42,176 bases of DNA. It comes from a virus. The stretch lies in IMG/VR virus record IMGVR_UViG_3300010401_000050, positions 1 through 42,176 of that record. One strand, written 5' to 3'. Every line of letters starts with the position of its first letter. Within the stretch, counting starts at the first letter, position 1. Under the pieces are notes generated by a model. The model made no database searches. It was not told where the DNA came from and saw only the letters and a list, made by a program, of their open reading frames with translations. Made by a program: the position numbers and the translations under genes. Of the stretch, positions 2,155 through 38,764 are shown in pieces.

Positions 2155-5100
2155 ATGCCCCTAGACAAGCAGATCGTTGGCGTCGCGTTCACTCAGGGAC
2201 TCGACACCCAGACTGATAAGCGCATCGTTCTGCCGGGCAGGATGGTGGCGCTCCAGAACACGACTCTTTCCGAAGAGGATACCTTCCGACGGCGGGACGG
2301 GAATACCGCCATTGCGACCGGGACGGCTCTGTCCGGGGTATCGACGCTCGGGGATCAACTCCTGGCGTTGGACGGCTCGACAGTGAAGAGTTATGCACCG
2401 AACGCTGGCGCGCTGGAGTCGGTGGGGACGCTGGACAACCTCACGCTCTCGCTCGGTCAGATCGTGCGCGGCACCGGGGGCCAAGACTCCTACGACGCGG
2501 CGACGAGTAGCGGCCTCACCTGCTACGTCTGGCGGGACTTCACGGCGGCCTCGGTCATCACGGGCTGCAAGGTGGTGATCAAGGATGAGACCACCGGCGC
2601 GACCGTGCTGCCCGAGACTTTCCTGAAGACGGGGACCACCATCTACTGCCCGCGCGTAGTGGTGGTGACCGGCGCCTTCCTCATCTTCTACGGGAACAGC
2701 GCGTCCACCACGCTCTACGCCAGGGTGGTGCAGACCTCGGCGCCGTCCACCCTCGGCGCAGAGACCAGTCTCCGGACGGACCTGTCCACTAACATCGGCA
2801 AGTTCGCCGCATGCGCCAGCAGCGGCAACGCCTTTCTCTACTACGTGACGGATGACGCGACCACCAGCACGCGGGCCATCACAGTCGTCACCAGCGGCAC
2901 CACCCCGAGCGTCTCGGCCGGGCCGCTGAACGTCACGTCGCAAGCACAGGTTGCGTCCACTCACATCGGCGGCGTGGCTGCGTCCACGTTCAGCGCCTCG
3001 TTGATCGGCGTCTACCTCGTAGCCGACAGCGGCGCGGGGACCCCAGGGCTGTGGGGAGCGGTGGTGACGAGCGCCATGGCCTCATCCGCTGCCGCGGCAT
3101 CGAAGGACACCGCGGCCTCCGTCCTGACGATCTCCAACGTGACCGCCGTCCTGAATGGCTCCACGATGTTCGTCTACTCTGACGACTTCAGCCGCGACGG
3201 CGAGGCCACGGCTACCGCAAGACTGGTGCGCCGGACCGGGCTCGACTCGACGAACGCCATCACGTCGGCCTCCACCACCCCCATCAACAGCATGACGCGC
3301 CCGAACGGGACCAATGGGCCGTTCATTGCTGGTAAGGCGTTCCTGGTGGGCTCCACCGTGTACCTCCCCATGTTCATCTTGGAGGCTGGCACCGGCTCAC
3401 TCCAGAATGCCTGGTTCCTGGTGAATGACTCGGCGCGTGTGGTGGCGCGAGCGCTCTATGGCACGTCGGGGCCGCCCTCCACGCTGGTGAACAACCTCGG
3501 TACCGCCATCGCGCTCTCCGCCACATCGATCGGACTCGTTGTGGGGCAGCGCACGTTTCTTTCGTTCGCCGCCGGGGTGAACGTGTCGGTCACCGGTATG
3601 GCCCGGATCGTCTTGGACTTCAGCGCGAGCGACCCGCTGATCCGTGTCCCGCTTGGGCCGTCCCTGGCGCTCGCCAACAGCACGCTCTCCGTCTTCGACG
3701 GGCTGTCGGCCACCGAGGCAGGGTTCTATTTGTTCCCGGAGGTGGTGACTGCCGTCCAGGGCGCCGCCGGTGGCGTGGTGGACGCGGGTGACCATCAGAT
3801 TGTCGCGCTCTACGAGTGGATCGATGGGGCCGGCCAACGTCACCAGTCCGCCCCATCCGTGGCCATCACCTACACCGCCGCCGATTCGGCCCACCACTGC
3901 ACGGTGACCATTCCGACGCTCGCGCTCACACAGAAGACCGGCGTCAATGTAGTCGTCTTCGCGACGAAGGCGGCCGGGACGATCTTCTATCGCGTGAACG
4001 CTGTGAACGCCCCGTTGGCCAACTCCACCACGGCCCCAACCGTGACGTTCGACTACAACGTCGTGGACACGGTGTTGGAGCGTGGGGAACTGCTCTACAC
4101 CACCGGCGGCATCCTCCCGAACAACTCCCCTCCGCCCACCAGCGCCATCGCCGCCCACCAGGATCGCCTGTTCATCACCGTGGATGACGATCCGTTCGCC
4201 TTCCAGTACAGCCAACCCTGGGTCTCCGGATTCGGCGTCCAGTGGAACGAGACGCTCCGGGGCCGCGTGGAGTCCACGGGCGGGACGATCAAGGCGTTCG
4301 CCTCGCTGGACGACAAGCTCATCATCTTCCGGCCCCGGAAGATTGGAGTGCTGTTCGGCAATGGGCCGTCCACCACCGGCGCGCAGAATGGCTACCAACC
4401 GGTGCAGGATCTCCCGGTGGACGTGGGGTGCTCCGAGCCGCGCAGCGTGCTGGTGCTCCCCGAGGGAGTCATCTTCAAGTCCACCTCGAAGGGCTGGTAC
4501 CGCCTCGGCCGGGACCTCCACCTCCAGTGGATCGGCGAGGGGGTGCAGGAGTTCGACGGCCAGTCGGTCACCAGCGCGGTGCTGATGGACACGCTGCGGG
4601 AGGCCCGCTTCACGCTCAACAACAACGGCTCCGACTCCATCCCCATGGCGCTGGTGTATGCCTACGAGCGGCGGGGCGAAGATGGCGTGGGCCAGTGGAG
4701 CACGTTCCTCAATGGCGGCTTCTCCCCGGTGGACGCGGTGTGGTGGCCGGGAGGCAACTCCTACGTCTTCGCCACCGCCACCTCGCTGGTGAAGGAACTG
4801 CCCCCCAACGCCAGCGGCTACGCCTACGGGGACTTCGCCGCCTCCCTGACGAGCGGAACGGGAGGGACGGCGCCGGCAGACCACACCGGCCTGCCCATCG
4901 CGACCCGGTGGCGCACTGGCTGGCTCAAGCCCTCGTCGGCCATCCAAGGCTTCCAGCGGGTGTGGCGCGTGCTGCTGACGGGTGACGTGGTGGGCTACCC
5001 ACAGCCAGGGACGACGCTCCAAGACGCGCTCAGTCCCGGAGATCGCACCCTCCACGTCTACGACACCTCGGTCTTCGCCACGGACTCCCTCGGCACCCAC

Positions 5101-5559
5101 GGCTTGCGCATCGGCCTGGCCACGGCCAACTACGAGGTCGCCTCCGAGGGGTTCGGCTACTCCATCGTGGACAGCACCCACCTCCTGCTGACCGACCCAA
5201 CCGGCGTGCTGTTCGCCCACTCCGGCGGGGCGACCGTCCGGGGGACTCCGGCCTTCGGGGCCCGCGGCTCGCTCGTGGTGAACTTCTACTTCGACGGCAA
5301 GGACACCACCCCTTACCAGACCATCACCATCTCCGACGTGAACGATCTCGTGGACGGCAACGCCTGGAACGTCCGCCTCCAGCCCAACCTCCAGAAGTGC
5401 AACCTGATGATGGTGGAGGCCATCTCCACGCCGCCCACCATCCCGGCGCAGTCCGGCGGCTACGTGGACCCTGGCGCCTCCATCAACTTCTCGGGGATGA
5501 CGCTCGAGGTGGGCGTCAAGAAGGGCGCCCGGAAGTACCCCGCGGCCCAGACGAAGTGA
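2155..5559 (+). CDS. Tail nozzle-like protein (T7 gp12-type role)
   Basis: A 1134-residue virion protein. Near the N-terminus FTQGLDTQTDKRIVLPGR and VALQNTTLSEEDTFRRRDG resemble the opening of podovirus nozzle/tubular B-type proteins, in which a GLDTKTD-like motif precedes an RRNG-like turn. The rest is beta-rich: long Thr/Ser/Val repeats to about 640, then a block with HQDRLFITVDDD, SLDDKLIIFRPRKIGVLFG and VIFKSTSKGWYRLG, typical of the propeller-like part of these proteins. It would form the distal tail tube through which DNA is ejected. The ATG at 2155 is used rather than an upstream one at 2116 because the similarity begins there; the ribosome site is weak. The assignment rests on sequence style and on position before the ejection proteins. 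Confidence 0.75.
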   Translation: MPLDKQIVGVAFTQGLDTQTDKRIVLPGRMVALQNTTLSEEDTFRRRDGNTAIATGTALSGVSTLGDQLLALDGSTVKSYAPNAGALESVGTLDNLTLSLGQIVRGTGGQDSYDAATSSGLTCYVWRDFTAASVITGCKVVIKDETTGATVLPETFLKTGTTIYCPRVVVVTGAFLIFYGNSASTTLYARVVQTSAPSTLGAETSLRTDLSTNIGKFAACASSGNAFLYYVTDDATTSTRAITVVTSGTTPSVSAGPLNVTSQAQVASTHIGGVAASTFSASLIGVYLVADSGAGTPGLWGAVVTSAMASSAAAASKDTAASVLTISNVTAVLNGSTMFVYSDDFSRDGEATATARLVRRTGLDSTNAITSASTTPINSMTRPNGTNGPFIAGKAFLVGSTVYLPMFILEAGTGSLQNAWFLVNDSARVVARALYGTSGPPSTLVNNLGTAIALSATSIGLVVGQRTFLSFAAGVNVSVTGMARIVLDFSASDPLIRVPLGPSLALANSTLSVFDGLSATEAGFYLFPEVVTAVQGAAGGVVDAGDHQIVALYEWIDGAGQRHQSAPSVAITYTAADSAHHCTVTIPTLALTQKTGVNVVVFATKAAGTIFYRVNAVNAPLANSTTAPTVTFDYNVVDTVLERGELLYTTGGILPNNSPPPTSAIAAHQDRLFITVDDDPFAFQYSQPWVSGFGVQWNETLRGRVESTGGTIKAFASLDDKLIIFRPRKIGVLFGNGPSTTGAQNGYQPVQDLPVDVGCSEPRSVLVLPEGVIFKSTSKGWYRLGRDLHLQWIGEGVQEFDGQSVTSAVLMDTLREARFTLNNNGSDSIPMALVYAYERRGEDGVGQWSTFLNGGFSPVDAVWWPGGNSYVFATATSLVKELPPNASGYAYGDFAASLTSGTGGTAPADHTGLPIATRWRTGWLKPSSAIQGFQRVWRVLLTGDVVGYPQPGTTLQDALSPGDRTLHVYDTSVFATDSLGTHGLRIGLATANYEVASEGFGYSIVDSTHLLLTDPTGVLFAHSGGATVRGTPAFGARGSLVVNFYFDGKDTTPYQTITISDVNDLVDGNAWNVRLQPNLQKCNLMMVEAISTPPTIPAQSGGYVDPGASINFSGMTLEVGVKKGARKYPAAQTK

Positions 5560-5573
5560 GGTAGAGTGCCCAC

Positions 5574-6542
5574 ATGGGAAACCCCGTCTCCGACTGGTGG
5601 AAGAACGTCACGAGCGGCACCTACGCCAAGCAGAACCAGCAGGCGGGGGAGGACTTCTGGCTCAACGGCGGGGGGAAGGGCATCCACGACTTCTTCTTCG
5701 GTCAGAAGGCCTCGGCGCCCCAGCAGCGACAGGTGGACTACGGGCAGTCGAACGAGGATCGGGCCCAGCAGATGGCCCTCCTCGCTCAACTCCAGAGCCA
5801 GTACGCAGGCATGGCGAACGGCACCGGGCCCTCGCTGGCGCAGGGACAACTTCAGCATGCGACGGACCAGAACATCAGCCAAGCGATGGCCCTCGGAGCC
5901 GCGCAGCAGGGCCAGGGCCTGGGGTACGCGAGCGCGCTCCGCAACATCGCTGACCAGTCTGCGGCGGCACGTCAGCAGGCGGCGGCGCAGTCCGCGATGA
6001 TCCGCAACGCGGAGCAGATGCAGGGCACGCAGGGCCTGGCCGGCGTGGCGGGCCTCTATGGCGGGGTGCGCGGGCAGGACCTGGGACAGGCCGGGATGCA
6101 GCAGCAGGGCAACCAGTTCTACGACGCGCTCAACTTCCAGGCGTCGCAGGCGAACGCCAACCATGGAGCGCTTCCGGGCATCCTGAACGCCGGGGGCGCC
6201 ATCCTAGGGATGGGACTCGGTGGGCCCGCTGGCGCGGCGGCCGGTGGACAGGCGGGCAACGTGATCACCGGCGGGTGGAACCCCAACACCACTCCCGCGC
6301 TCGCCCACGGCGGCATGGTGCGCGGCTACTCCGGTGGCGGCCCGGTGGACTCCACCCGGAATGACACCGTGCCCGCCATGCTCAGCCCCGGCGAAGTCGT
6401 CATCCCCCGGAGCATCACCCTCGCCCCGGACGCCCCGGAGCGCGCCAAGGCCTTCGTGGCCGCCATCATCGCCCACCGCCAGCGCCTCCCGGAGCCGGAC
6501 GAGCACCCGGTGGTGCGCGCCGCTCGGAAGAAGGCCGCCTGA
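5574..6542 (+). CDS. Internal virion (ejection-type) protein A
   Basis: A 322-residue protein rich in Gln and Ala. Residues about 45-190 are a long helical, low-hydrophobicity region; residues 195-225 are Gly-rich (GGAILGMGLGGPAGAAAGG), a glycine-zipper-like stretch able to insert in membranes. The C-terminal block GGGPVDSTRNDTVPAMLSP followed by GEVVIPRS is a recurrent motif at the ends of phage ejection and tape-measure-like proteins. Its start is 15 bp after the nozzle stop and its TGA overlaps the ATG of the next gene (TGATG). Position directly after the nozzle and before two larger helical proteins supports one of the trio of internal proteins that cross the host envelope with the DNA. 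Confidence 0.75.
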   Translation: MGNPVSDWWKNVTSGTYAKQNQQAGEDFWLNGGGKGIHDFFFGQKASAPQQRQVDYGQSNEDRAQQMALLAQLQSQYAGMANGTGPSLAQGQLQHATDQNISQAMALGAAQQGQGLGYASALRNIADQSAAARQQAAAQSAMIRNAEQMQGTQGLAGVAGLYGGVRGQDLGQAGMQQQGNQFYDALNFQASQANANHGALPGILNAGGAILGMGLGGPAGAAAGGQAGNVITGGWNPNTTPALAHGGMVRGYSGGGPVDSTRNDTVPAMLSPGEVVIPRSITLAPDAPERAKAFVAAIIAHRQRLPEPDEHPVVRAARKKAA

Positions 6543-8503
6543 TGCCGGACGCCCAGCGCCGAGAGACGCCAGAAGAGACGCCTGCCATCCACCACGTGGA
6601 GGAGCGGGAAGATCACTTCATCGTCACCGACTCCACCGGCGCCTTCCGCGTGGAGAAGTCCGGACTCGCGCCGGACACGCTGGCGCACATCCAAGGCATG
6701 GCGCACGGTGGCCTCGTCGGGGGGATTGCCGGTGGCGTCAGGGTGGACTCCGGTCCGGCGGAAGAGGGCGGGCAGGATGCGCCGCCCGTGGAGTCCCCGG
6801 ATGACCCGGACAAGGAGCCAGGGCCCCGCCAGGTGGAAATCCTCGATCGCGGCCACCCCAAGCGCGAGGCCGGGAGCGGCGGGAAGTCCACCCCATTGTT
6901 GATGGCGGAGGGCGGCGGCGTCCCGGACGCCGGAGCTCCGGGGTCCGCCTTCCTGCCATACCCCACCGTGGGCCCGCCGGACGCCGGAGTGGGGGGTATG
7001 CCCGTCCCGGCCGGCGCGATGGCGCCCCCGGCTCTCCCCGGCGGCCAGTCTCTGTTGGAGCGGATGAATGGCGGGCCGCTGGACGCCTCGCAACTCTTCG
7101 CCGTCCCGCAGGCCCTCATGGACGCGGTGCCGGAGGGGCTCCGCCAGTTGGTGAAGACGACCGGGGCCGGGCTGGTGCTGGATCCGCTGGCGCAGGCCGG
7201 CCGAGCGCTGGCTCCCCAGAAGGACGAAACCCTCCCGGACACGAGCGGGCCGTGGAAAGACCCCGGCATGCCCCCGATGGCGACGGAGGACATGGCCAAG
7301 ACGCCGGCCGCGCCTCCTGCGCCAGCAGCCACCCTTCCCGGCGGCGGGACGGGACAGGTGGGAGAACTGAACAAGGGCCTGGCGGAGCAGCGCGCGGCCC
7401 TCCTGGCGCAGGCAGAAGTCGAGAAGCAGCGGGGCGCGGCGCTGCTGCAACTGTCGGACTCCCACATCGCCCAGATGCAGGGCCTGGAGGCGGCGCACGC
7501 GGAGCAGATGGCCGCGCACCAGCGCCGGGCGGATGACCTCTTCCAGGCGACGCTCAACGCGAAGATCGACCCGAACCGGGTGTGGACGAGCGCCGACGTG
7601 GGGCAGCGCATCGGGGCGGGCATCGGCATCATCCTCTCCGGCATCGGGCAGAGCATGGGGGGCGGGCCCAACCTGGCGCTCCAGCAGATCGACCGGACCA
7701 TCGACCGAGACATCGACGCGCAGAAGACCAACCTGGAGAACCAGCGCAGCCTCCTGTCCCACTACCTCCAGCAGGGCCGCGACATGGTGGCGGCGCACCA
7801 GCTCGCCAAGGCCGACCTCAAGGACATGCTGGCCGCCCAGATGATGCGGGTGTCGGCGCAATTCGGCGGGCAGGAGGCGGCGGCGCGGGCCCAACTGGTG
7901 AGCGGGCAACTCCGGAGCGACGCGGCGATGAAGCGCTCGGAGATCCTCACCCGCGACTTCGCGATGTCCAAGGAGCGACTGGCGCTGCAACTCGCGCAGG
8001 AGCAACAGCGCCTGCTGGGCACCTTCCTGACGCAGCCGCGCGCTCCCGGCGGCGGACTCCCGGCAGATGAGGCCGTGTGGGAGATGATGCCCAAGGACAT
8101 GCGGGAGCGCCGCGTGCGGCTGCCCGGCGGTGGATGGGGACTGGCGGCCGACAAGGAGCAGGCCGGGAAGGTGGCGGATGGACTTCGGGCGGCGGATGAG
8201 CTGAAGCGGAACCTCCAGCGGTACTCGCAACTCCACCAGTCCGGCAAGCCGCGCATCCCCAGCGCCCTCGGCGGCGACGCGGCCTCGGCGGAGCAGATCC
8301 GCGGCACCATGACGGCTCGCCTGAAGGACCTGGAGAAACTCGGCGCCATCTCCAAGGGCGACTACGAGTTGATCGAGCAACAGATCCCCGACATCTCGTC
8401 CTGGACCACGGGCAACACCGCGATGGAGCAGAAGCTCAGCGCGCTCGGCTCTGCCATCGACGATGCCGTGGCCTCCCAGATGAAGGCGCTCGGAGTCCAG
8501 TGA
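6542..8503 (+). CDS. Internal virion (ejection-type) protein B
   Basis: A 653-residue protein. The N-terminal 40 residues look like a small folded region (EDHFIVTDSTGAFRVEKSG), followed by a long Pro/Gly-rich low-complexity segment to about 270. From about 275 to 520 it is Gln/Ala/Glu-rich and predicted to be largely coiled coil (for example EQRAALLAQAEVEKQRGAAL), with a short Gly-rich hydrophobic patch (GAGIGIILSGIGQSMGGG) near 360. It starts with an ATG overlapping the previous stop and ends overlapping the GTG of the next gene (GTGA), so the three genes are translationally coupled. A role as the middle ejection protein is inferred from composition and context; no enzymatic motif was seen. 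Confidence 0.7.
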   Translation: MPDAQRRETPEETPAIHHVEEREDHFIVTDSTGAFRVEKSGLAPDTLAHIQGMAHGGLVGGIAGGVRVDSGPAEEGGQDAPPVESPDDPDKEPGPRQVEILDRGHPKREAGSGGKSTPLLMAEGGGVPDAGAPGSAFLPYPTVGPPDAGVGGMPVPAGAMAPPALPGGQSLLERMNGGPLDASQLFAVPQALMDAVPEGLRQLVKTTGAGLVLDPLAQAGRALAPQKDETLPDTSGPWKDPGMPPMATEDMAKTPAAPPAPAATLPGGGTGQVGELNKGLAEQRAALLAQAEVEKQRGAALLQLSDSHIAQMQGLEAAHAEQMAAHQRRADDLFQATLNAKIDPNRVWTSADVGQRIGAGIGIILSGIGQSMGGGPNLALQQIDRTIDRDIDAQKTNLENQRSLLSHYLQQGRDMVAAHQLAKADLKDMLAAQMMRVSAQFGGQEAAARAQLVSGQLRSDAAMKRSEILTRDFAMSKERLALQLAQEQQRLLGTFLTQPRAPGGGLPADEAVWEMMPKDMRERRVRLPGGGWGLAADKEQAGKVADGLRAADELKRNLQRYSQLHQSGKPRIPSALGGDAASAEQIRGTMTARLKDLEKLGAISKGDYELIEQQIPDISSWTTGNTAMEQKLSALGSAIDDAVASQMKALGVQ

Positions 8504-13598: not shown

Positions 13599-13856
13599 TC
13601 AACCTCCGGGACTGGTAGGCGGCGGGGGTTCGCACGTCCCCAGATCCGGCCCCCGAGAGAGCACGTCCGCAAGCGCATTCGCCCTCTGGGCAAAGAAGGC
13701 GGCTTCCTCCAGTTTCGTGGTCACCAGTGACAACTCCCGGGACTTCGGGAGCGCCTCCTCGAGCCAATGCAGCAGCCCGCTGAACTCGAGTCGGATCTGC
13801 TCCGATCTCTCGATGCCGCCGTCAGACAACGCCGTCGCTGCGAACGCCTTGTGCAT
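13599..13856 (-). CDS. Acb2/Tad1 hairpin-type protein, candidate anti-CBASS sponge
   Basis: An 85-residue all-helical protein. It matches the Acb2/Tad1 domain pattern (formerly DUF7681): an N-terminal AFAATALSDGGIERSEQIR helix, a second helix with FSGLLHWLEEA, then the signature SRELSLVTTKLEEAAFF followed by AQRANA. Acb2 proteins form hexamers that bind cyclic di- and trinucleotides made by CBASS synthases, so blocking abortive immunity in the cytoplasm. The ATG at 13856 is preferred over the GTG one codon upstream because a textbook GGAGGTGA lies 6 nt before it. It is the last gene of the leftward operon. The C-terminal 18 residues are Pro-rich. Family assignment is from pattern recognition; ligand and activity are inferred. 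Confidence 0.85.
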   Translation of the reverse strand: MHKAFAATALSDGGIERSEQIRLEFSGLLHWLEEALPKSRELSLVTTKLEEAAFFAQRANALADVLSRGPDLGTCEPPPPTSPGG

Positions 13857-13870
13857 CACTCACCTCCACT

Positions 13871-13999
13871 TCAAGAAAAGATGCGGTCCCTGCGGCGCCC
13901 AGGAGAGAACGCGCCGCGGGACCGCCAGGCCGTCCGAACAAGGGCCCCCAGCCCATGCCCGGCGCCACAACCAACAAAGACGCGCTCGATGCCATCCAT
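13871..13999 (-). CDS. Possible 42-residue protein coupled to the Erf gene
   Basis: A short reading frame begins with an ATG overlapping the TAA of the Erf-like gene (TAATG) and ends just before the Shine-Dalgarno of the Acb2-like gene. The peptide is basic and Gly/Arg-rich (for example VFVGCGAGHGLGALVR) without a recognisable motif. Start/stop coupling is the only support, so it may be non-coding spacer. It fills nearly all of the gap between its neighbours. Confidence 0.3.
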   Translation of the reverse strand: MDGIERVFVGCGAGHGLGALVRTAWRSRGAFSPGRRRDRIFS

Positions 14000-14982
14000 T
14001 ACCCGCCGCTGCCAGGCTCGTCCGCTGGCGGCCCAAGGTGGCGACAGAACAACTCTGCGTCCTCGGCCGTCACCTCCTGGCGCCCCCCGCGCTTGCGGTG
14101 GTCGCGCAACCAGTTGGCCACCGCGGTTCCGTCCCACCCGTGCTGGGAGCCTGCCTTCAAGGCCTTGGCGAAGTACACCCCGGCGCCGCGCTCGCGGGCG
14201 TGCTCCTCATTCTCGCCCGGCAGCACGTCCACGATGCCGAGGCCCTTCGCGGCGGCCTTCACATCGGCGGACGACGGGCCCGGCTTCTGGGTGTCGGGCT
14301 TGGGGTTCTGCCTGCGCATCTCCGCTTCGATGGCCCCGATGAGCGCTGACTCGCTGGCGTGGAAGCGCTTCTTCTCTGGGTTGGCCAGCGCCTTCCGCGC
14401 CGCTTCGAGGTAGATGATGAGGTGCCGTGGGTCCGCCCCGGCGATGGCGCCCTTGGGGGCAGGGCCGAAGGTCGGGAAGTGCGTCGGCGCTGCTCGGTTG
14501 CTGGCTGGCGGTTCGTCTCCGGCGGGCTCTGGGCGCTGACGTTGACGGGGCGGCGGAACGGCGTCGTTCTCCGGGTCGTCTCCGGTGGGGATCATGAAGC
14601 CGTTGAGGATGGCGTACTTCATGGCGCCCGTGAGCGCCTTCCCGGACTGCTTGTCCCCGTAGTCCATGCCTTCCCCCATCGTCTCCGCGAAGTCGAGCTT
14701 CTCGCCCGTCTCTCCGTCGTGGGCCGTGAGGGTGAGGTAGACCGCGAGCACGTTGACCTCGCCGTTCTTGGTTTTGCAGATGCGCCACTCGGAACGGGTC
14801 AGCTTGTGGGTGACGAAGATGCGCCGGTTCGCCAGTTCCTTGCGCACCTCCGCCAGCACGTCCGCCGCGGTGGCGTAATCGTACCCTTGAGCGGAGTTGT
14901 GGCCGTTCTTCGGGATGCGATCGGCATGCGCCATCACCTCGGCCAACTTGGAGACCAGCGTCATCTTGCCAGGCTCGCTCAC
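13999..14982 (-). CDS. erf: Erf-like single-strand DNA annealing protein
   Basis: A 327-residue recombinase of the Erf superfamily. The N-terminal domain shows the family hallmarks: LAEVMAHADRIPKNGHN, GYDYATAADVLAEVRKEL, a central VYLTLTAHDGETGEKLDF, then the conserved GEGMDYGDKQSGKALTGAMK and LNGFMIPTGDDPE. These proteins anneal complementary single strands for recombination-dependent circularisation and repair. A Pro-rich linker (145-180) leads to a C-terminal helical domain. The GTG at 14982 overlaps the previous TGA and has GGAGGAG upstream. It follows directly after the Gam-like gene, a typical recombination pair. Confidence 0.9.
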   Translation of the reverse strand: MSEPGKMTLVSKLAEVMAHADRIPKNGHNSAQGYDYATAADVLAEVRKELANRRIFVTHKLTRSEWRICKTKNGEVNVLAVYLTLTAHDGETGEKLDFAETMGEGMDYGDKQSGKALTGAMKYAILNGFMIPTGDDPENDAVPPPRQRQRPEPAGDEPPASNRAAPTHFPTFGPAPKGAIAGADPRHLIIYLEAARKALANPEKKRFHASESALIGAIEAEMRRQNPKPDTQKPGPSSADVKAAAKGLGIVDVLPGENEEHARERGAGVYFAKALKAGSQHGWDGTAVANWLRDHRKRGGRQEVTAEDAELFCRHLGPPADEPGSGG

Positions 14983-15572
14983 GACTCCTCCTCTGCGGAC
15001 ACGGTCAGCGTCTCGGACTCCGGAATGCGCCGAACGCCAGGCGGGATAACCTTCGTCTTCTTGACGTGCTCGTTCAGGCCGGACTTGGAGAACATGTCCC
15101 GAATAGTCCGCGGCGGCGGTTCGGGGAAGATGGGATCTGCCGCGGCGCCCTCCCCGTTCGCCCACTCCCAGAGGGCGTCGTAGTCCGTCACCTCCAGCAC
15201 GGCCGGCTTCGTACGCCACGCCAGCATCAGGCCGCTCGGCAGCGTCCGGGACTTCGCACGGCCAACGAGAATCTCGTCTCGGTGCGAGTGGGCGTAGATC
15301 TCGATGGCCGTCCGGAACTTCTCGGCCTCGCGCTCCAGCGGCGCGTTCAGTGCCTCGGTCCGGTCGCGGATGCGAGCGACGGCGGCCACCATGAGACGCT
15401 CGTTCTCGGAGATGCCGCGCTCGTACTCGGCCCACTTCCCGCCAGCCCAGTCGAGTCCTCCGATGTTCTGGACCCGGCCGTCCCGGAAGCCATCCCACTC
15501 CAGCTCGCCCGCCACTGGGTCTGCGCCAGAGGGCGCCTCGTCGGACAGGTCCTCCTCGGTGGGCGCGCTCAC
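14979..15572 (-). CDS. gam: Mu Gam-like host-nuclease inhibitor
   Basis: A 197-residue protein similar in pattern to Mu Gam: a long N-terminal helix (RIRDRTEALNAPLEREAEKF), the segment IYAHSHRDEIL, then the conserved KSRTLPSGLMLAWRTKPAV and a C-terminal LNEHVKKTKVIPPGV strand-turn. Mu Gam binds DNA ends and blocks RecBCD-type exonucleases, so it would protect ends before Erf acts. The GTG start overlaps the upstream TGA (GTGA), with GAGG 10 nt before. Its own stop overlaps the Erf start. A tail of about 25 acidic residues follows the conserved part. Confidence 0.8.
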   Translation of the reverse strand: MSAPTEEDLSDEAPSGADPVAGELEWDGFRDGRVQNIGGLDWAGGKWAEYERGISENERLMVAAVARIRDRTEALNAPLEREAEKFRTAIEIYAHSHRDEILVGRAKSRTLPSGLMLAWRTKPAVLEVTDYDALWEWANGEGAAADPIFPEPPPRTIRDMFSKSGLNEHVKKTKVIPPGVRRIPESETLTVSAEEES

Positions 15573-15823
15573 GGGCCGACCTCAGAGAGCAACGCGGCAT
15601 CCCGAAGACACCACGCACAGCGGCCGATTTCGCTCAACGACCCGCAGCAGTCCTCTACCCGTGCCCGCAACCGCTCGACGAGACGCCTCACGTCTTCGCG
15701 GGCTTGCCGATGATCGGCCTCCACCTTCGCCACCAACTCCACGGCCTCCTCTTGTTCGATGTCTGGATTGCCCATCGCCTTGTCTGCCGCCGCGTACTCG
15801 GCGTCCGTCAGTCGTACCGCCAT
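15569..15823 (-). CDS. Small helical protein of the recombination operon
   Basis: An 84-residue protein starting MAVRLTDAEYAAADKAM and continuing as a charged amphipathic helix (VEADHRQAREDVRRLVERLR), then a short Cys-containing end (EDCCGSL, GRCAWCLRD). The ATG at 15823 has AGGAGG 8 nt upstream and overlaps the previous stop (TGATG). The two CxxC-like pairs near the C-terminus might bind metal. Function unknown. Confidence 0.65.
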   Translation of the reverse strand: MAVRLTDAEYAAADKAMGNPDIEQEEAVELVAKVEADHRQAREDVRRLVERLRARVEDCCGSLSEIGRCAWCLRDAALLSEVGP

Positions 15824-16107
15824 CACCGCGCCTCCTGTCCCGTCTGCTCCGCCGCCTTCGTTTCCCACTTCCTCACCCACTCCGTCACCTGCTCCAGCGT
15901 GCCGGCGAAGTAGATGCGCTCACCCGTGGCCGAGCGTCCGTAGACCTCCGCGGAGCCGGGGCGAAGTCCGTTGATCATGTCCAGGCCCCACGTCACCTCG
16001 CGACGCCGGGCCCTGAAGAGTCCGGGGCCGGTGTAGCGCTTCAGGGCCCAGCCGTATGGCCGGAGCGCCGTGAGCATGTCGTGGAAGTCGGAGATGGTCT
16101 CAGGCAT
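15823..16107 (-). CDS. Unknown phage protein, 94 aa
   Basis: A 94-residue protein with a compact alpha/beta look: ISDFHDMLTALRPYGWALKR, an EVTWGLDMIN strand, YGRSATGERIYFAG and a C-terminal helix (VTEWVRKWETKAAEQ). No motif recognised. It overlaps the preceding gene by 8 bp and its stop overlaps the next start. No strong ribosome site precedes this ATG, so expression probably relies on coupling to the upstream gene. Confidence 0.6.
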   Translation of the reverse strand: MPETISDFHDMLTALRPYGWALKRYTGPGLFRARRREVTWGLDMINGLRPGSAEVYGRSATGERIYFAGTLEQVTEWVRKWETKAAEQTGQEAR

Positions 16108-16387
16108 CGAGGTTGTCCGGATTCGCGCGGCACCGATCGCAGTGCGTCCCGAAGCCAGGAGGAACGCGGTCCCCACACGCCAAGCAGTACCACTCGCTGC
16201 ACGCCGTGCAGAAGCCTCCGCCGTGGCGGTCCGGACAGGCCGGCCTCAGGCGTCCGTATTTGGTGGCGGCATCCAGCACCATCCCGAGCGCCTCGTCGGT
16301 CCGGTCGCCTCCGGTCACCACCTCGTGGCCGGAACCCAGTACGTCTCGGAGGGCAGAGACTTCCTTGATGGCTTCGTCGAGAGTCAT
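16100..16387 (-). CDS. Zinc-ribbon-like protein, 95 aa
   Basis: A 95-residue protein with an N-terminal helix (LDEAIKEVSALRDVLG) and a C-terminal Cys-rich module: CPDRHGGGFCTACSEWYC, CGD and CDRCR. The spacing fits a treble-clef or double zinc ribbon, suggesting DNA, RNA or protein binding. The ATG overlaps the upstream TGA. Specific role unknown. Confidence 0.65.
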   Translation of the reverse strand: MTLDEAIKEVSALRDVLGSGHEVVTGGDRTDEALGMVLDAATKYGRLRPACPDRHGGGFCTACSEWYCLACGDRVPPGFGTHCDRCRANPDNLDA

Positions 16388-16695
16388 GGCTCAGAGACCC
16401 AGAGCCAGTCCGACAGGCGCATGCTGGTCGGCGGGTCTGCCGCGAGAACCTTCCCGTCAGTCCCGCAATCCCGAACCATGAAGAGGCCGTCGCGCATCTG
16501 GTCCCCGGTCGGATCCGGACTCACCAATGCCCAGCGATCGCCGGACCCCCAACCCGCGCCCGGCACGCGCAACTCGTCCATCTGGTGGCGGCTTGTCTTG
16601 CCTGGGATGATGATGGCGACCTGCCCCTGCCTGACGAACGACAGGGTCTCCGGCGTCTTCACCTCCACGTCTCGGACCGACTTCGCTCGACTCAT
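16384..16695 (-). CDS. Unknown phage protein, 103 aa
   Basis: A 103-residue protein. Its sequence reads as a small beta-rich domain: SFVRQGQVAIIIPGK, RWALVSPDPTG, GLFMVRDCGTDGKVLAA, ending LSDWLWVSEP. No conserved motif recognised. It is coupled to both neighbours by ATGA overlaps within the leftward operon. Confidence 0.6.
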   Translation of the reverse strand: MSRAKSVRDVEVKTPETLSFVRQGQVAIIIPGKTSRHQMDELRVPGAGWGSGDRWALVSPDPTGDQMRDGLFMVRDCGTDGKVLAADPPTSMRLSDWLWVSEP

Positions 16696-17260: not shown

Positions 17261-17289
17261 AGCATAGCGGCGGGCGGCGCAGTTGTCAA
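17261..17289 (-). promoter_or_regulatory. Leftward sigma-70 promoter
   Basis: On the minus strand TTGACA (17289-17284) is followed after exactly 17 bp by TATGCT (17266-17261), matching the bacterial consensus at 6/6 and 4/6 positions. It points into the Gam/Erf/Acb2 operon, whose first gene starts at 17131. A promoter this close to consensus in a GC-rich genome suggests immediate-early expression by host polymerase. Confidence 0.75.
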
Positions 17290-17317: not shown

Positions 17318-17506
17318 ATGGCGACCAAGAAGCGGAACCGGACGCTTGGCGTTCGGGTGGACGGCAAGACGCGGGAGTGGTTGGAGCGGGTGGCGCGAGA
17401 GAACGACCGGAACATCTCATGGGTCATCCGGTCGTCCCTGGAGTACGCCCGGCTCCGCGACGAGGGGGCAGGCCCGACGGCGGCCCGGAAGGCCGGTGCG
17501 GCATGA
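17318..17506 (+). CDS. Ribbon-helix-helix DNA-binding protein
   Basis: A 62-residue protein with the Arc/CopG fold pattern: a short strand RTLGVRV (residues 8-14), helix A around KTREWLERVARENDRN, and helix B starting ISWVIRSSLEYAR. Such dimers bind DNA with the paired strands. It is the first gene of the rightward early operon, divergent from the leftward promoter, and overlaps the next gene by ATGA. Likely a regulator of one or both divergent operons; the palindrome at 17240-17254 is a plausible site. Confidence 0.8.
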   Translation: MATKKRNRTLGVRVDGKTREWLERVARENDRNISWVIRSSLEYARLRDEGAGPTAARKAGAA

Positions 17507-21911: not shown

Positions 21912-22082
21912 ATGGGAGTCACGGACAGCACGGTCGAGAAGCGCGTGGAGTTGTTGGAGGCGGCCGAAGAGGCATTGGCCGCCGAGGCGATCGGTGCCAT
22001 GGACAAGTGGGGCGCGTTGACGCGGGCCATTAATGAGGCTCTCGACGCGACGTATGCGAAGCGGGCGAGGTTGGCCCGGTGA
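21912..22082 (+). CDS. Small helical protein between initiator and loader
   Basis: A 56-residue acidic helical protein (VEKRVELLEAAEEALAAEA, AIGAMDKWGALTRAINEAL). GGAG lies 9 nt before the ATG, and its TGA overlaps the GTG of the helicase loader, so it is coupled to replication genes. Function unknown; it may assist loader or initiator. Confidence 0.65.
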   Translation: MGVTDSTVEKRVELLEAAEEALAAEAIGAMDKWGALTRAINEALDATYAKRARLAR

Positions 22083-22915
22083 AGTCGCTTGCGGAGATCA
22101 TGCGCTCACAGAAGCGCTTCGAGGTACTCGGTGGCCGGACGCTCGCGGAGAACGCCGCGCACTGGCAGGCGCAGTGGGCGAAGGGACTGGGCAACGTCTG
22201 GCCGTCCGGGCCCGGCGGCCCCCCGCGGCAACTACCGCCAGACGAAGAGCTCAACCTCCCGCTCCACCTCGCACGGTGCGGAGTCCCGGACCGCGCCGCG
22301 TCCGTGGTGGTGGCCGGTGCGGACATGGACGAGCGCTACCTCTCGACGGTGCTGGCCGTCCGGGAGTGGATGGAGAAGGGCGGCGGCTTTCTGTTGCTCC
22401 ACGGGGTGTCGGGCGCTGGCAAGTCCGTGGCCGCTGCGACGATCTTCCTCGCGGCCCGCGAGACGCTCGCGTGGCCCGGCGGCGGGGTGACGCGCTACGA
22501 GTCCAGCGCCTGCGCCTTCATGGCGGTGTCGGACTTGTCGCGGGACTCGTACTTCGATGCCGACGCGCGGGCGTTGCTGGACCACCTCAAGCGTGTCCGA
22601 CTGCTGGTGCTGGACGACTTGGGGGCGGAGTTGCTGACTCCGGGGTACCTCGCGACGCTGGACGAGCTGGTGCGGGTGCGCTTCGAGGACCCGCGAGCGC
22701 GGACGGTGCTGACCTCCAATGTGAGCGCCAGCCGGCCCAGGGGCCCGGACGGGAAGCCACTGCTGGACGCGACAGGGCAGCCGAAAGTCTCGCCCTTCGA
22801 GGAGCGCTACGGAGCGCGTATCGCCCGGCGCATCAGGGAGTCCGGGAAGGTAGTGGCGTGCGAGGCGCGCTCGACCCTCGCCTCCGGGGCAGGCGCGAAG
22901 GGGTGGACGCCATGA
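22079..22915 (+). CDS. DnaC/IstB-like AAA+ helicase loader
   Basis: A 278-residue AAA+ ATPase. Walker A is GVSGAGKS (109-116), Walker B LLVLDDLGAE (175-184), and a sensor-1-like TVLTSN follows near 215, ending with FEERYGARIARRIRESGKVV, an arginine-finger-like box typical of DnaC-type loaders. The N-terminal 80 residues would contact the host replicative helicase. It would load host helicase at the phage origin. The GTG start overlaps the previous stop. A phage helicase is not encoded, in line with recruitment of the host enzyme. Confidence 0.85.
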   Translation: MKSLAEIMRSQKRFEVLGGRTLAENAAHWQAQWAKGLGNVWPSGPGGPPRQLPPDEELNLPLHLARCGVPDRAASVVVAGADMDERYLSTVLAVREWMEKGGGFLLLHGVSGAGKSVAAATIFLAARETLAWPGGGVTRYESSACAFMAVSDLSRDSYFDADARALLDHLKRVRLLVLDDLGAELLTPGYLATLDELVRVRFEDPRARTVLTSNVSASRPRGPDGKPLLDATGQPKVSPFEERYGARIARRIRESGKVVACEARSTLASGAGAKGWTP

Positions 22916-23385
22916 AAAGCGGCGCGGTGGGTGATGCTGTGTACCGATACATGCTCTTCCGGGAGTGGGACGCGGCTTTGCCGGCGGTGGTCTTCGTCAT
23001 GCTCAATCCAAGCACCGCGGATGTCGTGGTGGACGATCCGACCGTGCGGCGCTGCATCGCCTTCGCGACGGCGTGGGGTTACGGGCGCTTGGAGGTGCGG
23101 AACCTATTCGCCCTGAGAGCGACTGATCCGCGCGCGCTCGCCAAGCACGTAGCCCCCGTTGGCCCAGAGAATGACGAGGCGATCCGGTCAGCCGCTGCGG
23201 GGCATGATGTCGTAGCGGCGTGGGGTGTCCATGGCGCGCACCTCGGCCGCGGGATGTGGGTTGCGCGCGAGATGCTCCGACCCTTGGCAGCGCGGCTCTG
23301 GCATCTCGGCTTGACGAAGACAGGGCATCCCAAGCACCCGCTCTATTTGCGCAACGACGTGGTGCGCACAGAGTGGGCACCATGA
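22912..23385 (+). CDS. DUF1643 family protein
   Basis: A 157-residue protein with the complete DUF1643 signature: VFVMLNPSTADVVVDDPTVR, a WGYGRLEVRNLFALRATDP block, VGPENDEAI, a VVAAWGVHG strand and the C-terminal LGLTKTGHPKHPLYLR. The activity of this family is not established; it is frequent in phages and near restriction or repair genes. Coupled by ATGA to the loader and to the next nuclease gene. Confidence 0.85.
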   Translation: MKSGAVGDAVYRYMLFREWDAALPAVVFVMLNPSTADVVVDDPTVRRCIAFATAWGYGRLEVRNLFALRATDPRALAKHVAPVGPENDEAIRSAAAGHDVVAAWGVHGAHLGRGMWVAREMLRPLAARLWHLGLTKTGHPKHPLYLRNDVVRTEWAP

Positions 23386-34457: not shown

Positions 34458-36395
34458 ATGAGCGACTCCGTCTCCGTTACCAGCGGCGTGGCCGTGGGGA
34501 AGAACGTCACGGCCCCCGGCGCAGAAGTGCAGGCGTACTCGAAGTGGTGGCTGAAGGACGCCACGAAGTACGACGGCAAGGAGGTGGCGGACGGCATTCA
34601 GGCCGCCGTGAATCGCCTCAAGGAGCACCAGGCCGCGCGCATCAATCAGTGCGTCCTCGGCGCTCGCCTCTACGGCAACGCGCCGCTGCTGGCCATGGGC
34701 GCGCGTGCGGCGCTCAGTCCCCAGGCCTCCGCAGCGCGCAACGAGGTGCGGGACAACGTCATCCAAAGCATCGTGGACACCTCCACCGCCACCATCGGGG
34801 AGAACAAGCCCCGGCCCTACTTCCTCACGGACGGTGGGGACTACAAGCTCCAGCGCCAGGCGAAGAAGCTCAACCAGTTTGACGACGGCATCTTCTACGA
34901 GCTGAGGGCGTACAACGTCGGGAGCGACGCCCAGCGCGACGCGGAAATCCTCGGGGACGGGTGGGTGTACGTCGGGAAGGAATTCGGGCGCATCGTCTAC
35001 CAGCGGGCGCTGTCCACCGAGCTGTGGTGCGACGAGCTGGAGGGGGCGCTGGACGTGCCCCGCCAGTTGCACTGGGAGCGGCCCGTGGACCGGGACCGGC
35101 TCATTGCGCTGTACCCGAAGAAGGCGACGCTCATTGCGGTGGCGAAGCGGGCGGATCCAGTCGAGTACGGCGGGCGGGACGGCATCTCCGACATGGTGGT
35201 GTTCCGCCGGAGCTGGCATCTCCGGAGCGGGCCGAAGGAGGTGGACCAGAACGGGAAGGCCATCAAGACGGGCGTCTGCGTCGCCAGTATAGACGGCGTG
35301 GTGTTGGAGGCGTGCGAGTGGGATGAGGACTGGTACCCGTTCGCTCACTGGATCTGGACTCCACGCCCGGCGTCGTTCTGGGGGCAGGGCCTGGCCGAGC
35401 AACTCCAGTCGATGCAGATCGAGGTGTGGAAGCTGGACCGCTTCATTCAGCAGTCCATGCACCGGGCCGGGACGTACAAAGTCTTCTTGGAGGCCGGCTC
35501 GAAGGTGGTGAAGGAGCACGTCTCCAACGAGGTCGGTGCAATGGTGACGTACCGAGGGACGAAGCCGGAGTACGTGGTGCCGCCGGCCGTCCACCCGGAC
35601 TGGTTCACCCGGCGGGACACGCTCAAGGAGAACATGTACGAGGTGGCGGGCATCTCCCGCCTCAGCGCCACCGGAGAGAAGCCAGCGGGGCTCAACTCCG
35701 GCGAAGCGCAGCGCGTGTACCGAGACTCGGTGGCGCTCCGGATGAAGACGCAAGAGCGCCTCAACGAGGACGGCTTCATGCAACTCGCGCGGCTGTCCAT
35801 CGCCACGGCGCGACAGATCGCGCTGGAGACGGGCAAGCCGTATGAGGTGCGCAGCCAACGGAAGCGCTCGCTCCGGAAGGTGAGCATGTCCGCGGAGGAG
35901 TTGGACCCGAAGGACTGGCGTCTCCAGTGCTTCCCCACGTCCTCCCTCCCGAAGGACCCCGCCGGCAAGTTCGCCGCGGTCCAGGAGCGCATCCAGGCCG
36001 GGTTCCTCACTATGTCCGAGGGAAAGCGGCTGCTGGACTTCCCGGACCTGGAGGCCACCGAGTCGCTCACCAACGCGACGGAAGACCTCATGACGCTCAT
36101 CCTGGACGACATCGTGGACGGCGAGGGGTACCGCCCGCCGGAGCCGACGATGAATCTCCAGCGCGCGAAAGAGTTGTGCCTCGAGTACATCAACTTCGGG
36201 CAACTCCACAACCTCGGTCCGGAGGAGTCCGACTTGCTCCAGATCTGGAATGAGCAGGTGGACGCGCTGATGCAGATGGCGATGCCGCCACCGACGCTCA
36301 CCGGAGCGGCGCCGGGTGGTGCTCCGGGCGGCGGACCACCTCAGGGTCAGCCGATGGCGCCGCCGCAGAGCAACCTGATGCCGTTCGCGGCGTAG
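34458..36395 (+). CDS. Portal protein
   Basis: A 645-residue portal of the podovirus type. Recognisable blocks: NEVRDNVIQSIVDTSTATIG, the long central region with WGQGLAEQLQSMQIEVWKLD, RRDTLKENMYEVAGISRLSA and a crown/tail region with QRVYRDSVALRMKTQERLNE. The C-terminal 40 residues are Pro/Gly/Gln-rich. Twelve copies would form the head vertex, docking the terminase during packaging and the tail adaptor afterwards. Position after the terminase and before the scaffold is canonical. No strong Shine-Dalgarno; a GGGTGG lies upstream. Confidence 0.9.
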   Translation: MSDSVSVTSGVAVGKNVTAPGAEVQAYSKWWLKDATKYDGKEVADGIQAAVNRLKEHQAARINQCVLGARLYGNAPLLAMGARAALSPQASAARNEVRDNVIQSIVDTSTATIGENKPRPYFLTDGGDYKLQRQAKKLNQFDDGIFYELRAYNVGSDAQRDAEILGDGWVYVGKEFGRIVYQRALSTELWCDELEGALDVPRQLHWERPVDRDRLIALYPKKATLIAVAKRADPVEYGGRDGISDMVVFRRSWHLRSGPKEVDQNGKAIKTGVCVASIDGVVLEACEWDEDWYPFAHWIWTPRPASFWGQGLAEQLQSMQIEVWKLDRFIQQSMHRAGTYKVFLEAGSKVVKEHVSNEVGAMVTYRGTKPEYVVPPAVHPDWFTRRDTLKENMYEVAGISRLSATGEKPAGLNSGEAQRVYRDSVALRMKTQERLNEDGFMQLARLSIATARQIALETGKPYEVRSQRKRSLRKVSMSAEELDPKDWRLQCFPTSSLPKDPAGKFAAVQERIQAGFLTMSEGKRLLDFPDLEATESLTNATEDLMTLILDDIVDGEGYRPPEPTMNLQRAKELCLEYINFGQLHNLGPEESDLLQIWNEQVDALMQMAMPPPTLTGAAPGGAPGGGPPQGQPMAPPQSNLMPFAA

Positions 36396-36653
36396 GCGGT
36401 TTCTCCCCTTCAAGCCGCTGTGCCCCTCCGGCGAGAGGAGCTGGGCCAGGGGCAGCGCCCCTGCGCGACGGACCAGCGAGGAAGGATCGATCAGCGCGCG
36501 CGACGCGCGAAGCGTCGCCTCACCAAAACCGCGCGTCAATCGGGCAATGGGAGGATGAAAATTCGTTCATCGGTCCGTCTGATGCGTGCTGGACACACAC
36601 GCGCCACTTCGGATCGCTTGACCGCTCTATTCCGGTGCATGTAGTGTCATGAC
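36396..36653 (+). promoter_or_regulatory. Gap between portal and scaffold with hairpins
   Basis: 258 bp without a convincing gene. It contains CAGGGGC-agc-GCCCCTG (36447-36463) and GCGACGC-gcgaa-GCGTCGC (36500-36518), neither with a U-tract, then TTGACC followed 18 bp later by TAGTGT just before the scaffold ATG, a weak promoter-like pair that would give an almost leaderless mRNA. A 74-codon frame across the gap has no supporting features. Confidence 0.4.
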
Positions 36654-37499
36654 ATGCCCCAGAACGGAGCAGACAGCGCACCCACGGCGAGTCCCCCCCA
36701 GGCGCCCGGTGCGCCCTCCGCGACTCCCGTCGCCAAGCCGGCGGAGCCGGACCGGGCGCAGGCGCTGGAGTCTCGGCTCGCGGCCATCGAGGCCGAGCGC
36801 ACCGCCGAGCGGAAGCAGTGGCAGGCGCAGCAGGCCGAATGGACGAAGAAGGACAAGGCCCGCGAGGCGCTGGAGCAGGAGCGCACGCGCAACCCCGCGA
36901 AGCACATGAAGGAGCTGTTCGGGGAGAACTGGTACGACGCGGCCACCAAGGCGAAGGCCGGCACCGTGGCTCCGGAGCACGTCTCCGCGGCGCTGGACGA
37001 GCGGGAGCAGCGGATTCGGGAGTCCGTCTCCAGCGAGGTGAAGTCCCTCCGGGACGAGTTGGCGGAGCTGCGGAAGGACCGGGAAGAGCGGGCCCGCGAG
37101 AAGATCTACTCCCAGGCCGCCGCCCACGTCCGAGGCAACGCGGAGAAGTACCCCCTCACCACCCGGTACCAGAAGGCGGATGAGGTGGGGGCGCTGATCG
37201 AGTCCCATTTCAAGGCGACGGCCCGGCAGAACGCGGACGGAAGCTGGGCGCCCGGCGAGATGTGGACGCACGAGCAGGCCGCCGCAGAGATGGAGAAGTA
37301 CTGGGGCTCCATCCGCGAGATGGTGCTCAAGAGCGAGAACGGCCGGCAACTCCCGGAGGGGAGCACCATGCCGCGGCTGACCATCATCCCGGAGCAGCGC
37401 GCGCCAGAGCCCCCGAAGGACGACGCCGAGCGGCGTGCGCGAGTGGACCGGATGTGGGCGGACGTGCAGGCCAAGCGCCAGGGAAGTCGGCCGAACTGA
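36654..37499 (+). CDS. Scaffold protein
   Basis: A 281-residue protein with the typical scaffold composition: disordered Pro/Ala N-terminus (ASPPQAPGAPSATP), a long charged coiled coil (AIEAERTAERKQWQAQQAEW to about 150), and a basic C-terminal segment (DDAERRARVDRMWADVQAKR) suited to bind the capsid protein. It directs assembly of the prohead and leaves before or during packaging. Located directly before the major capsid gene. Confidence 0.85.
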   Translation: MPQNGADSAPTASPPQAPGAPSATPVAKPAEPDRAQALESRLAAIEAERTAERKQWQAQQAEWTKKDKAREALEQERTRNPAKHMKELFGENWYDAATKAKAGTVAPEHVSAALDEREQRIRESVSSEVKSLRDELAELRKDREERAREKIYSQAAAHVRGNAEKYPLTTRYQKADEVGALIESHFKATARQNADGSWAPGEMWTHEQAAAEMEKYWGSIREMVLKSENGRQLPEGSTMPRLTIIPEQRAPEPPKDDAERRARVDRMWADVQAKRQGSRPN

Positions 37500-37534
37500 G
37501 GGTTTGAGCCGCTCCGGCGGCGGAGGAGCAGCAC

Positions 37535-38764
37535 TTGTCGATCTACGCAGACGTGGCCTCAGCCAATCCGGTGCTCAAGGAGCACTACGACGGCCAGGCG
37601 GTGCAGAAGGCGACGTACACCGACAACCCGGTGCTGATGTTGCTGCCGAAGAATGAGTCCGGCGCGGGTGGCAAGTACTACCCGGTGCCCATCAAGTACG
37701 AGAATTCGATGGGCCGCTCGGCGGTGTTCGCCACCGCGCAGGCGAACCAGACGGCGAACGCCTTCGCGGAGTTCCTCGTCACCCGGAAGCTCGACTACTC
37801 CATCGCCACCATCCAGAACGAGCTGCTGCTGGCTGCGATGTCGGACCGGGACACGTTCGATCGCGAAGTGGTCCAGCCGATCGACGGCGCGATCGAGGCG
37901 GCCACCCTCTCCACCGCCTCGGCCATCTTCCGCGACGGCACCGGCACCATCGGCACCATCGCGACCGGCGGCATCACCGCGGGCGTCATCACCCTCACCA
38001 ACCCGGCGGACGTGGCCCAGTTCTCCATCGGCATGACGCTCCAGGCGAACTCCACCAGCGGCGGGACTCCGCGCGCGGCGTTCGGCTACGTCATCGCCCG
38101 CTCCATCCGCAACGGCACCGTGACGGTGGCCTCGTCCGGGCAGGGAGGCGCGGCCGGCTCTCCGACTTCGTGGACCGCCGGGGACTCGCTGCTGGTGTCC
38201 GGGGACAACAACGCCAAGCCCTCCGGCTTCCAGGCGTGGCTCCCGATGACGGATCCCACCTCCAGCGACAACTTCTACGGCGTCAACCGCTCGGTGGACT
38301 ACCGCCTCTTCGGCATCCAGTACGACGGTTCCGGGCAGCCCATCGAGGAGGCCCTGGTGGACCACTCGATGCTGATCGCCCGCGAGGGCGGGGCGCCGGA
38401 CTACTTCTTCACCAACTTCGGGAGCCAGGCGGCGCTGGTGAAGGCGCTCGGCACCCGCCGGCAGTACGTGGACATCAAGGGGCCAGCCGACATCGGCTTC
38501 CGGGCGCTCGAGGTGGACACCGCCTCCGGGCCCATCAAGGTGCTAGCGGACCGCTCCTGCCAGGCCGCCCGCGGCTTCATGGTGCGGCTGGGGACGTGGA
38601 GTCTGATCAGCCTCGGCCCGGTGCCGCAGATTCTCCGGTACGAGGACCGCGTCGAGATGCTCCGCGTCTACAACGCGGACGCGGCCGAGGCCCGCATCGC
38701 CTCCTACTACAACCTCATCTGCCGCAACCCCGTGCGGAACGGGCAGACCCTGCTGAGCCAGTAG
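37535..38764 (+). CDS. Major capsid protein, TTG start
   Basis: A 409-residue HK97-fold-type capsid protein inferred from order and sequence: an N-terminal arm (NPVLKEHYDGQAVQKATYTD), then GKYYPVPIKYENSMGRSAVF (E-loop region), VTRKLDYSIATIQNELLLAA, a long spine-like helix and P-domain, an inserted Gly/Ser/Thr region at about 130-200, and a C-terminus FMVRLGTWSLISLGPVPQIL. The start is a TTG with a strong GGAGGAG 7 nt upstream, unusual for the most abundant virion protein. Confidence 0.85.
   Translation: MSIYADVASANPVLKEHYDGQAVQKATYTDNPVLMLLPKNESGAGGKYYPVPIKYENSMGRSAVFATAQANQTANAFAEFLVTRKLDYSIATIQNELLLAAMSDRDTFDREVVQPIDGAIEAATLSTASAIFRDGTGTIGTIATGGITAGVITLTNPADVAQFSIGMTLQANSTSGGTPRAAFGYVIARSIRNGTVTVASSGQGGAAGSPTSWTAGDSLLVSGDNNAKPSGFQAWLPMTDPTSSDNFYGVNRSVDYRLFGIQYDGSGQPIEEALVDHSMLIAREGGAPDYFFTNFGSQAALVKALGTRRQYVDIKGPADIGFRALEVDTASGPIKVLADRSCQAARGFMVRLGTWSLISLGPVPQILRYEDRVEMLRVYNADAAEARIASYYNLICRNPVRNGQTLLSQ

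Follow-up and report, generated by a model that had tools for sequence, protein, structure and literature searches.

The window, a virus record of 42,176 bases with 69% GC, probably encodes a phage sponge of the Acb2/Tad1 hairpin family, more precisely of its Acb2 branch. As a hexamer, it would sequester a defence second messenger, perhaps rather a cyclic trinucleotide or another signal than 3',3'-cGAMP, and it would probably be expressed with the gam-erf operon. Proteins of this family soak up nucleotide alarm signals used by bacteria against phages. The protein, P0001, adds a new member to the already known family PF24729, ordinary apart from its divergence. Its build, a single short hairpin lacking any N-terminal beta domain, is Acb2-like and not Tad1-like.

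Family assignment and predicted fold

The minus-strand ORF of P0001 (Table 1), translated as MHKAFAATALSDGGIERSEQIRLEFSGLLHWLEEALPKSRELSLVTTKLEEAAFFAQRANALADVLSRGPDLGTCEPPPPTSPGG, contains the motif ALSDGG...SRELSLVTTKLEEAAFF reported in the sequence-only reading of this DNA, and a strong Shine-Dalgarno sequence, called perfect there, indeed precedes its ATG. An alternative GTG start at 13859 lies very near this sequence. The codon-position GC content of the ORF (0.65/0.52/0.78) is consistent with coding in a genome of 69% GC.

P0001 scores 39.7 bits against the Pfam family PF24729 (Acb2/Tad1 hairpin), for which the curated cut-off is 27 bits, and 43 bits against PHROG 1454, a family of unknown function. 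Searches of NCBIfam and PADLOC gave no match, nor did tblastn against isolated phages, where PF24729 was reached through relatives only. When a profile of the relatives, constructed with the window sequence excluded, was compared with 660 six-frame segments, P0001 was the sole significant match (E 1.1e-17; next-best segment, 1.3), and it was still matched (E 3.1e-11) after exclusion of the near subclade as well. A profile made from the T4 and PaP2 proteins alone fails to recover the ORF (E 2.2), so that P0001 is connected to the proven sponges via intermediates. In a PDB profile search with a family alignment of 15 sequences (A3), the nearest solved structure by sequence was 9ptq, 'Acb2 homolog 43' (E 1.9e-15); T4 Vs.4 was matched at 0.012 and a number of Tad1 entries at about 8e-4. 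On the phylogenetic tree, a clade supported at 83/97, though with long branches, unites the window protein, 9ptq, and six relatives.

The Acb2 helical hairpin expected from the sequence-only reading was obtained by AlphaFold both with six sequences (pLDDT 76) and with twelve (pLDDT 84.7 overall, 97-98 in the helix cores). The model has a short turn at residues 3-5, where confidence is low (about 63), an antiparallel hairpin of two helices (residues 12-35 and 40-68), and, beginning near residue 70, a proline-rich tail modelled at low confidence; it agrees with the Acb2 architecture of a short N-terminal helix and two long helices without a beta domain. Tad1 proper was rejected, since its N-terminal antiparallel beta-sheet domain is absent and just 11 residues stand ahead of helix 1. 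In a Foldseek search of BFVD, a collection of predicted viral structures, the top 12 matches were all named Acb2/Tad1 hairpin proteins (probability 1.00, rmsd down to 0.7 A). The best match in the PDB was 7uq2, T4 Vs.4 with cGAMP, which was also obtained with the shallower-alignment model; its E-value of 0.65 is not significant alone. Membership in the Acb2/Tad1 hairpin family is therefore borne out by Pfam, the PDB profile search, AlphaFold with Foldseek, and the tree.

Genomic context of the gene and its relatives

Table 1. Features around the acb2-like gene, in window coordinates
Feature	Coordinates	Strand	Evidence or comment
Acb2/Tad1 hairpin-domain protein P0001, 85 aa	13599..13856	-	ORF, ATG at 13856, 85 codons + stop
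Shine-Dalgarno GGAGGTGAGTG, strong	13857..13870	-	directly before the ATG
GC-rich hairpin (-30.6 kcal/mol), then T-rich CATCTTTTCTT	13884..13924	-	between erf and the acb2-like gene
ERF-family ssDNA-annealing protein	13999..14982 (start 14982 or 14964)	-	PF04404, 58.7 bits; phrog_155, 98.9 bits
Mu Gam-like DNA end-protection protein	14979..15572	-	PF07352, 39.3 bits (cut-off 28.3); phrog_491
Four small overlapping ORFs	15569-15823, 15823-16107, 16100-16387, 16384-16695	-	nothing above cut-off in family searches
Small ORF, 74 aa	16907..17131	-	first clear gene past the promoter-like site; no family
Sigma-70-like promoter TTGACA-17-TATGCT	17261..17289	-	reads into the minus-strand operon; consensus match only

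The gam and erf genes named in the sequence-only reading are confirmed by the Pfam matches upstream of the acb2-like gene on the same strand, and the four small ORFs before them are probably co-transcribed. The promoter-like site is the sole one found in 4.1 kb, where 0.2 would be expected. Near it, and diverging from the operon, lies a gene for a ribbon-helix-helix-like protein of 62 amino acids (17318-17506, plus strand), a candidate regulator whose match to Pfam RHH_1 is below the cut-off. One of the small ORFs, of 95 codons (16100-16387), has a Cys-rich, zinc-ribbon-like C-terminus, FCTACSEWYCLACGDRVPPGFGTHCDRC.

By position the acb2-like gene indeed stands at the end of this operon, as had been claimed, but it is separated from erf by a gap of 142 nt (fold z-score -2.0) with a terminator-like hairpin. 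This hairpin, absent from the list of a simple terminator scan, is possibly a terminator or attenuator, or else a 5'-UTR structure; given the gap, the strong hairpin, and the T-rich run, co-transcription of erf and the acb2-like gene is plausible, not more.

The proposal that the operon is an anti-defence island found no support as a conserved arrangement. Gam was detected in none of the 13 other records that carry a relative of P0001 (12 phage records and one MAG), a weak negative given that the Gam model produced no signal in any control genome either, and ERF is present in two of the 13 but not adjacent to the Acb2 relative. Conversely, a single viral record (L034) among 36 with a related Erf carries the Acb2 family. 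The linkage is thus not conserved, and Gam-Erf is a common recombination module: Mu Gam protects DNA ends and is ordinarily part of such modules. The small operon proteins, put forward in the sequence-only reading as candidates for other inhibitors, have no match in Pfam, PHROGs, or PADLOC that passes the cut-off. The acb2-like gene sits in a DNA-metabolism region, as do some of its relatives.

IMG/VR and one Bryobacterales MAG yielded relatives of P0001. Phages of Mycobacterium, Gordonia, Paenibacillus, and Streptomyces commonly carry PF24729-like proteins (tblastn using the L034 homologue as query gave 331 records), a few of which are annotated as cyclic-nucleotide inhibitors; we know of no functional assay for most members of PF24729. 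The L034 contig has an independent order of an Acb2-family gene, a small ORF, Sipho Gp157, Erf, and SSB (4963-6973), and its Acb2 protein shares 95% identity with proteins of Paenibacillus phages. A genome in the order of the Bryobacterales MAG contains a PF24729 match of 70.5 bits with one in-frame TAG (L064, G238:C471:31485-31649), for which a pseudogene, a sequencing error, and stop recoding are alternatives. In the Gordonia phage ChisanaKitsune, the PF24729-like gene is located between the portal and RNA ligase genes, and the gene that follows carries the annotation VIP2-like ADP-ribosyltransferase.

Elsewhere in the window, the portal and capsid regions (about 34458-38764, plus strand) have matches in podovirus families of the SU10 type (portal of SU10, adaptor, and, weakly, MCP). 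The terminase had no match in isolated phages, and a search for near relatives via Gam found none. A long plus-strand ORF at 22033-23385, whose residues 301-450 match phrog_3230 (2.6e-50), is probably a DUF1643 gene; one scanned ORF matches DUF1643 (6.5e-42), the scan having left the ORF unnamed.

Putative ligand-contacting residues and the proposed signal

Residues were compared in one alignment of 20 PF24729 members including those of T4, PaP2, and 9ptq, and invariance was assessed in A3, where R40, T47, and L49 are invariant and F5, E41, K48, and E50-A52 nearly so. P0001 retains the second-helix patch RE-x5-TKLEEA, with R40, E41, T47, K48, E50, and E51, as well as the basic residue R22. In the Pseudomonas phage Acb2 (p26 of PaP2, 8h2j/8ixz), a protein of the same family, R40 corresponds to R67, which we take to be a trinucleotide-site residue, and R22 to K26 (K23 in T4), presumably a phosphate contact; the inter-helix region of P0001 is shorter by about 20 residues. 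T4 Acb2 (Vs.4, 7uq2) likewise forms a hairpin and its T68 is equivalent to T47, but it has D61 in place of R40, F82 in place of A61 (also Ala in PaP2), and a far longer inter-helix loop. The Tyr that both sponges require to bind cyclic dinucleotides (T4 Y8, PaP2 Y11) is replaced by Ala7 in P0001.

This column is filled by Val or Thr across the subclade of P0001 and by Tyr in most other members. The PF24729 proteins of Mycobacterium, Gordonia, and Paenibacillus phages (for example Balomoji gp102, 'cyclic nucleotide inhibitor') have the same hairpin and motif as P0001 but mostly F-x-Y-H where P0001 has F-A-A-T. 9ptq, from the same tree clade, resembles P0001 in its N-terminal F, the G before helix 1, RE-x5-TKLEEAxFF, and the lack of the canonical Tyr (Thr in 9ptq), and differs in having K for R22, H for T8, and a shorter proline-rich C-terminal tail; a literature search found neither its ligand nor its source publication. 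In T4 Acb2, mutation Y8A disrupts dinucleotide binding (PMC12657218, PMC12657230) and the T68M variant is weaker (PMC12657230). The di- and trinucleotide sites of Acb2 are separate, the latter being at the trimer interface and of higher affinity (PMC12043709, PMC11044969). Judging from sequence, these data fit a sponge with an altered dinucleotide site. Of the ligand-contact positions compared, the patch with R40 and T47 is present, together with R22, and the dinucleotide tyrosine is not. Of the claimed sponge for CBASS or Thoeris signals, sequestration is likely, but the evidence does not establish which ligand is taken up: a CBASS dinucleotide is no more plausible than a trinucleotide or some other signal.

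The family and the hairpin also fit a classical anti-CBASS Acb2, in which F5 or another residue would substitute for the tyrosine and the inter-protomer pocket would hold 3',3'-cGAMP or another cyclic dinucleotide. F5, two residues ahead of the Tyr column, is kept in all aligned members except T4 and PaP2, and R22 preserves the basic position of PaP2 K26. Yet R22 is Ala in the closest phage relatives, the Tyr column is A, V, or T throughout the subclade, 9ptq included, and the Tyr-to-Ala change disrupts dinucleotide binding in T4 Acb2 (PMC12657218), which makes this reading rather unlikely. The loss of the tyrosine may shift the likelier ligand toward a trinucleotide or another signal. We tentatively suggest that the whole subclade (the window protein, 9ptq, the phage relatives L002-L007, and the Bryobacterales MAG protein) may be a ligand-switched Acb2 branch that has lost the dinucleotide tyrosine and kept the second-helix patch. 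Its members would then sequester cyclic trinucleotides only (cA3 or cAAG, from CBASS or type III CRISPR), or else a signal that has yet to be linked to Acb2.

It is improbable that P0001 is Tad1-like in ligand, binding chiefly the ADP-ribose-derived Thoeris signal. The family profile does match Tad1 chains (E about 8e-4; 7uav, 8kbb, and others) through RE-x5-T-x2-EEA, within the hairpin motif SRE-x5-T-x2-EEA common to Tad1 and P0001, but the match spans only about 22 hairpin residues, and the protein of 85 residues is a hairpin without the Tad1 N-terminal beta-sheet domain, which is part of the protomer and pocket architecture (PMC12043709). A small helical protein with a non-sequestration role, for instance an accessory of the adjoining replication or recombination module, is hardly more probable. 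Relatives often occur beside DNA replication genes (a family A polymerase in L007, a primase-polymerase in L003, and Gp157-Erf-SSB in L034), and members from isolated phages appear in many contexts; however, the neighbours are as diverse as portal, ThyX, tRNA, and ClpP genes, so there is no stable partner, and the conservation falls in the patch common to the proven sponges T4 Acb2 and Tad1.

Under the preferred sponge reading, protomers with a short N-terminal segment and the modelled two-helix hairpin would assemble in sixes, by analogy with solved Acb2. The hexamer would capture the nucleotide second messenger that a defence enzyme of the host produces, in CBASS or perhaps in type III CRISPR or Thoeris, and would thereby keep the effector from being triggered and the infected cell from aborting. 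A cyclic trinucleotide at the three-fold site, or another signal, may be a likelier ligand than classical 3',3'-cGAMP. The gene and the minus-strand gam-erf operon are probably expressed together, and transcription may have to read through the hairpin for this.

With P0001, a known family of phage anti-immunity proteins now includes a phage that resembles isolated phages little. Since its subclade lacks a residue thought essential for cyclic-dinucleotide capture, a panel of ligands and this one small protein would suffice for a direct test of which signal the branch binds.
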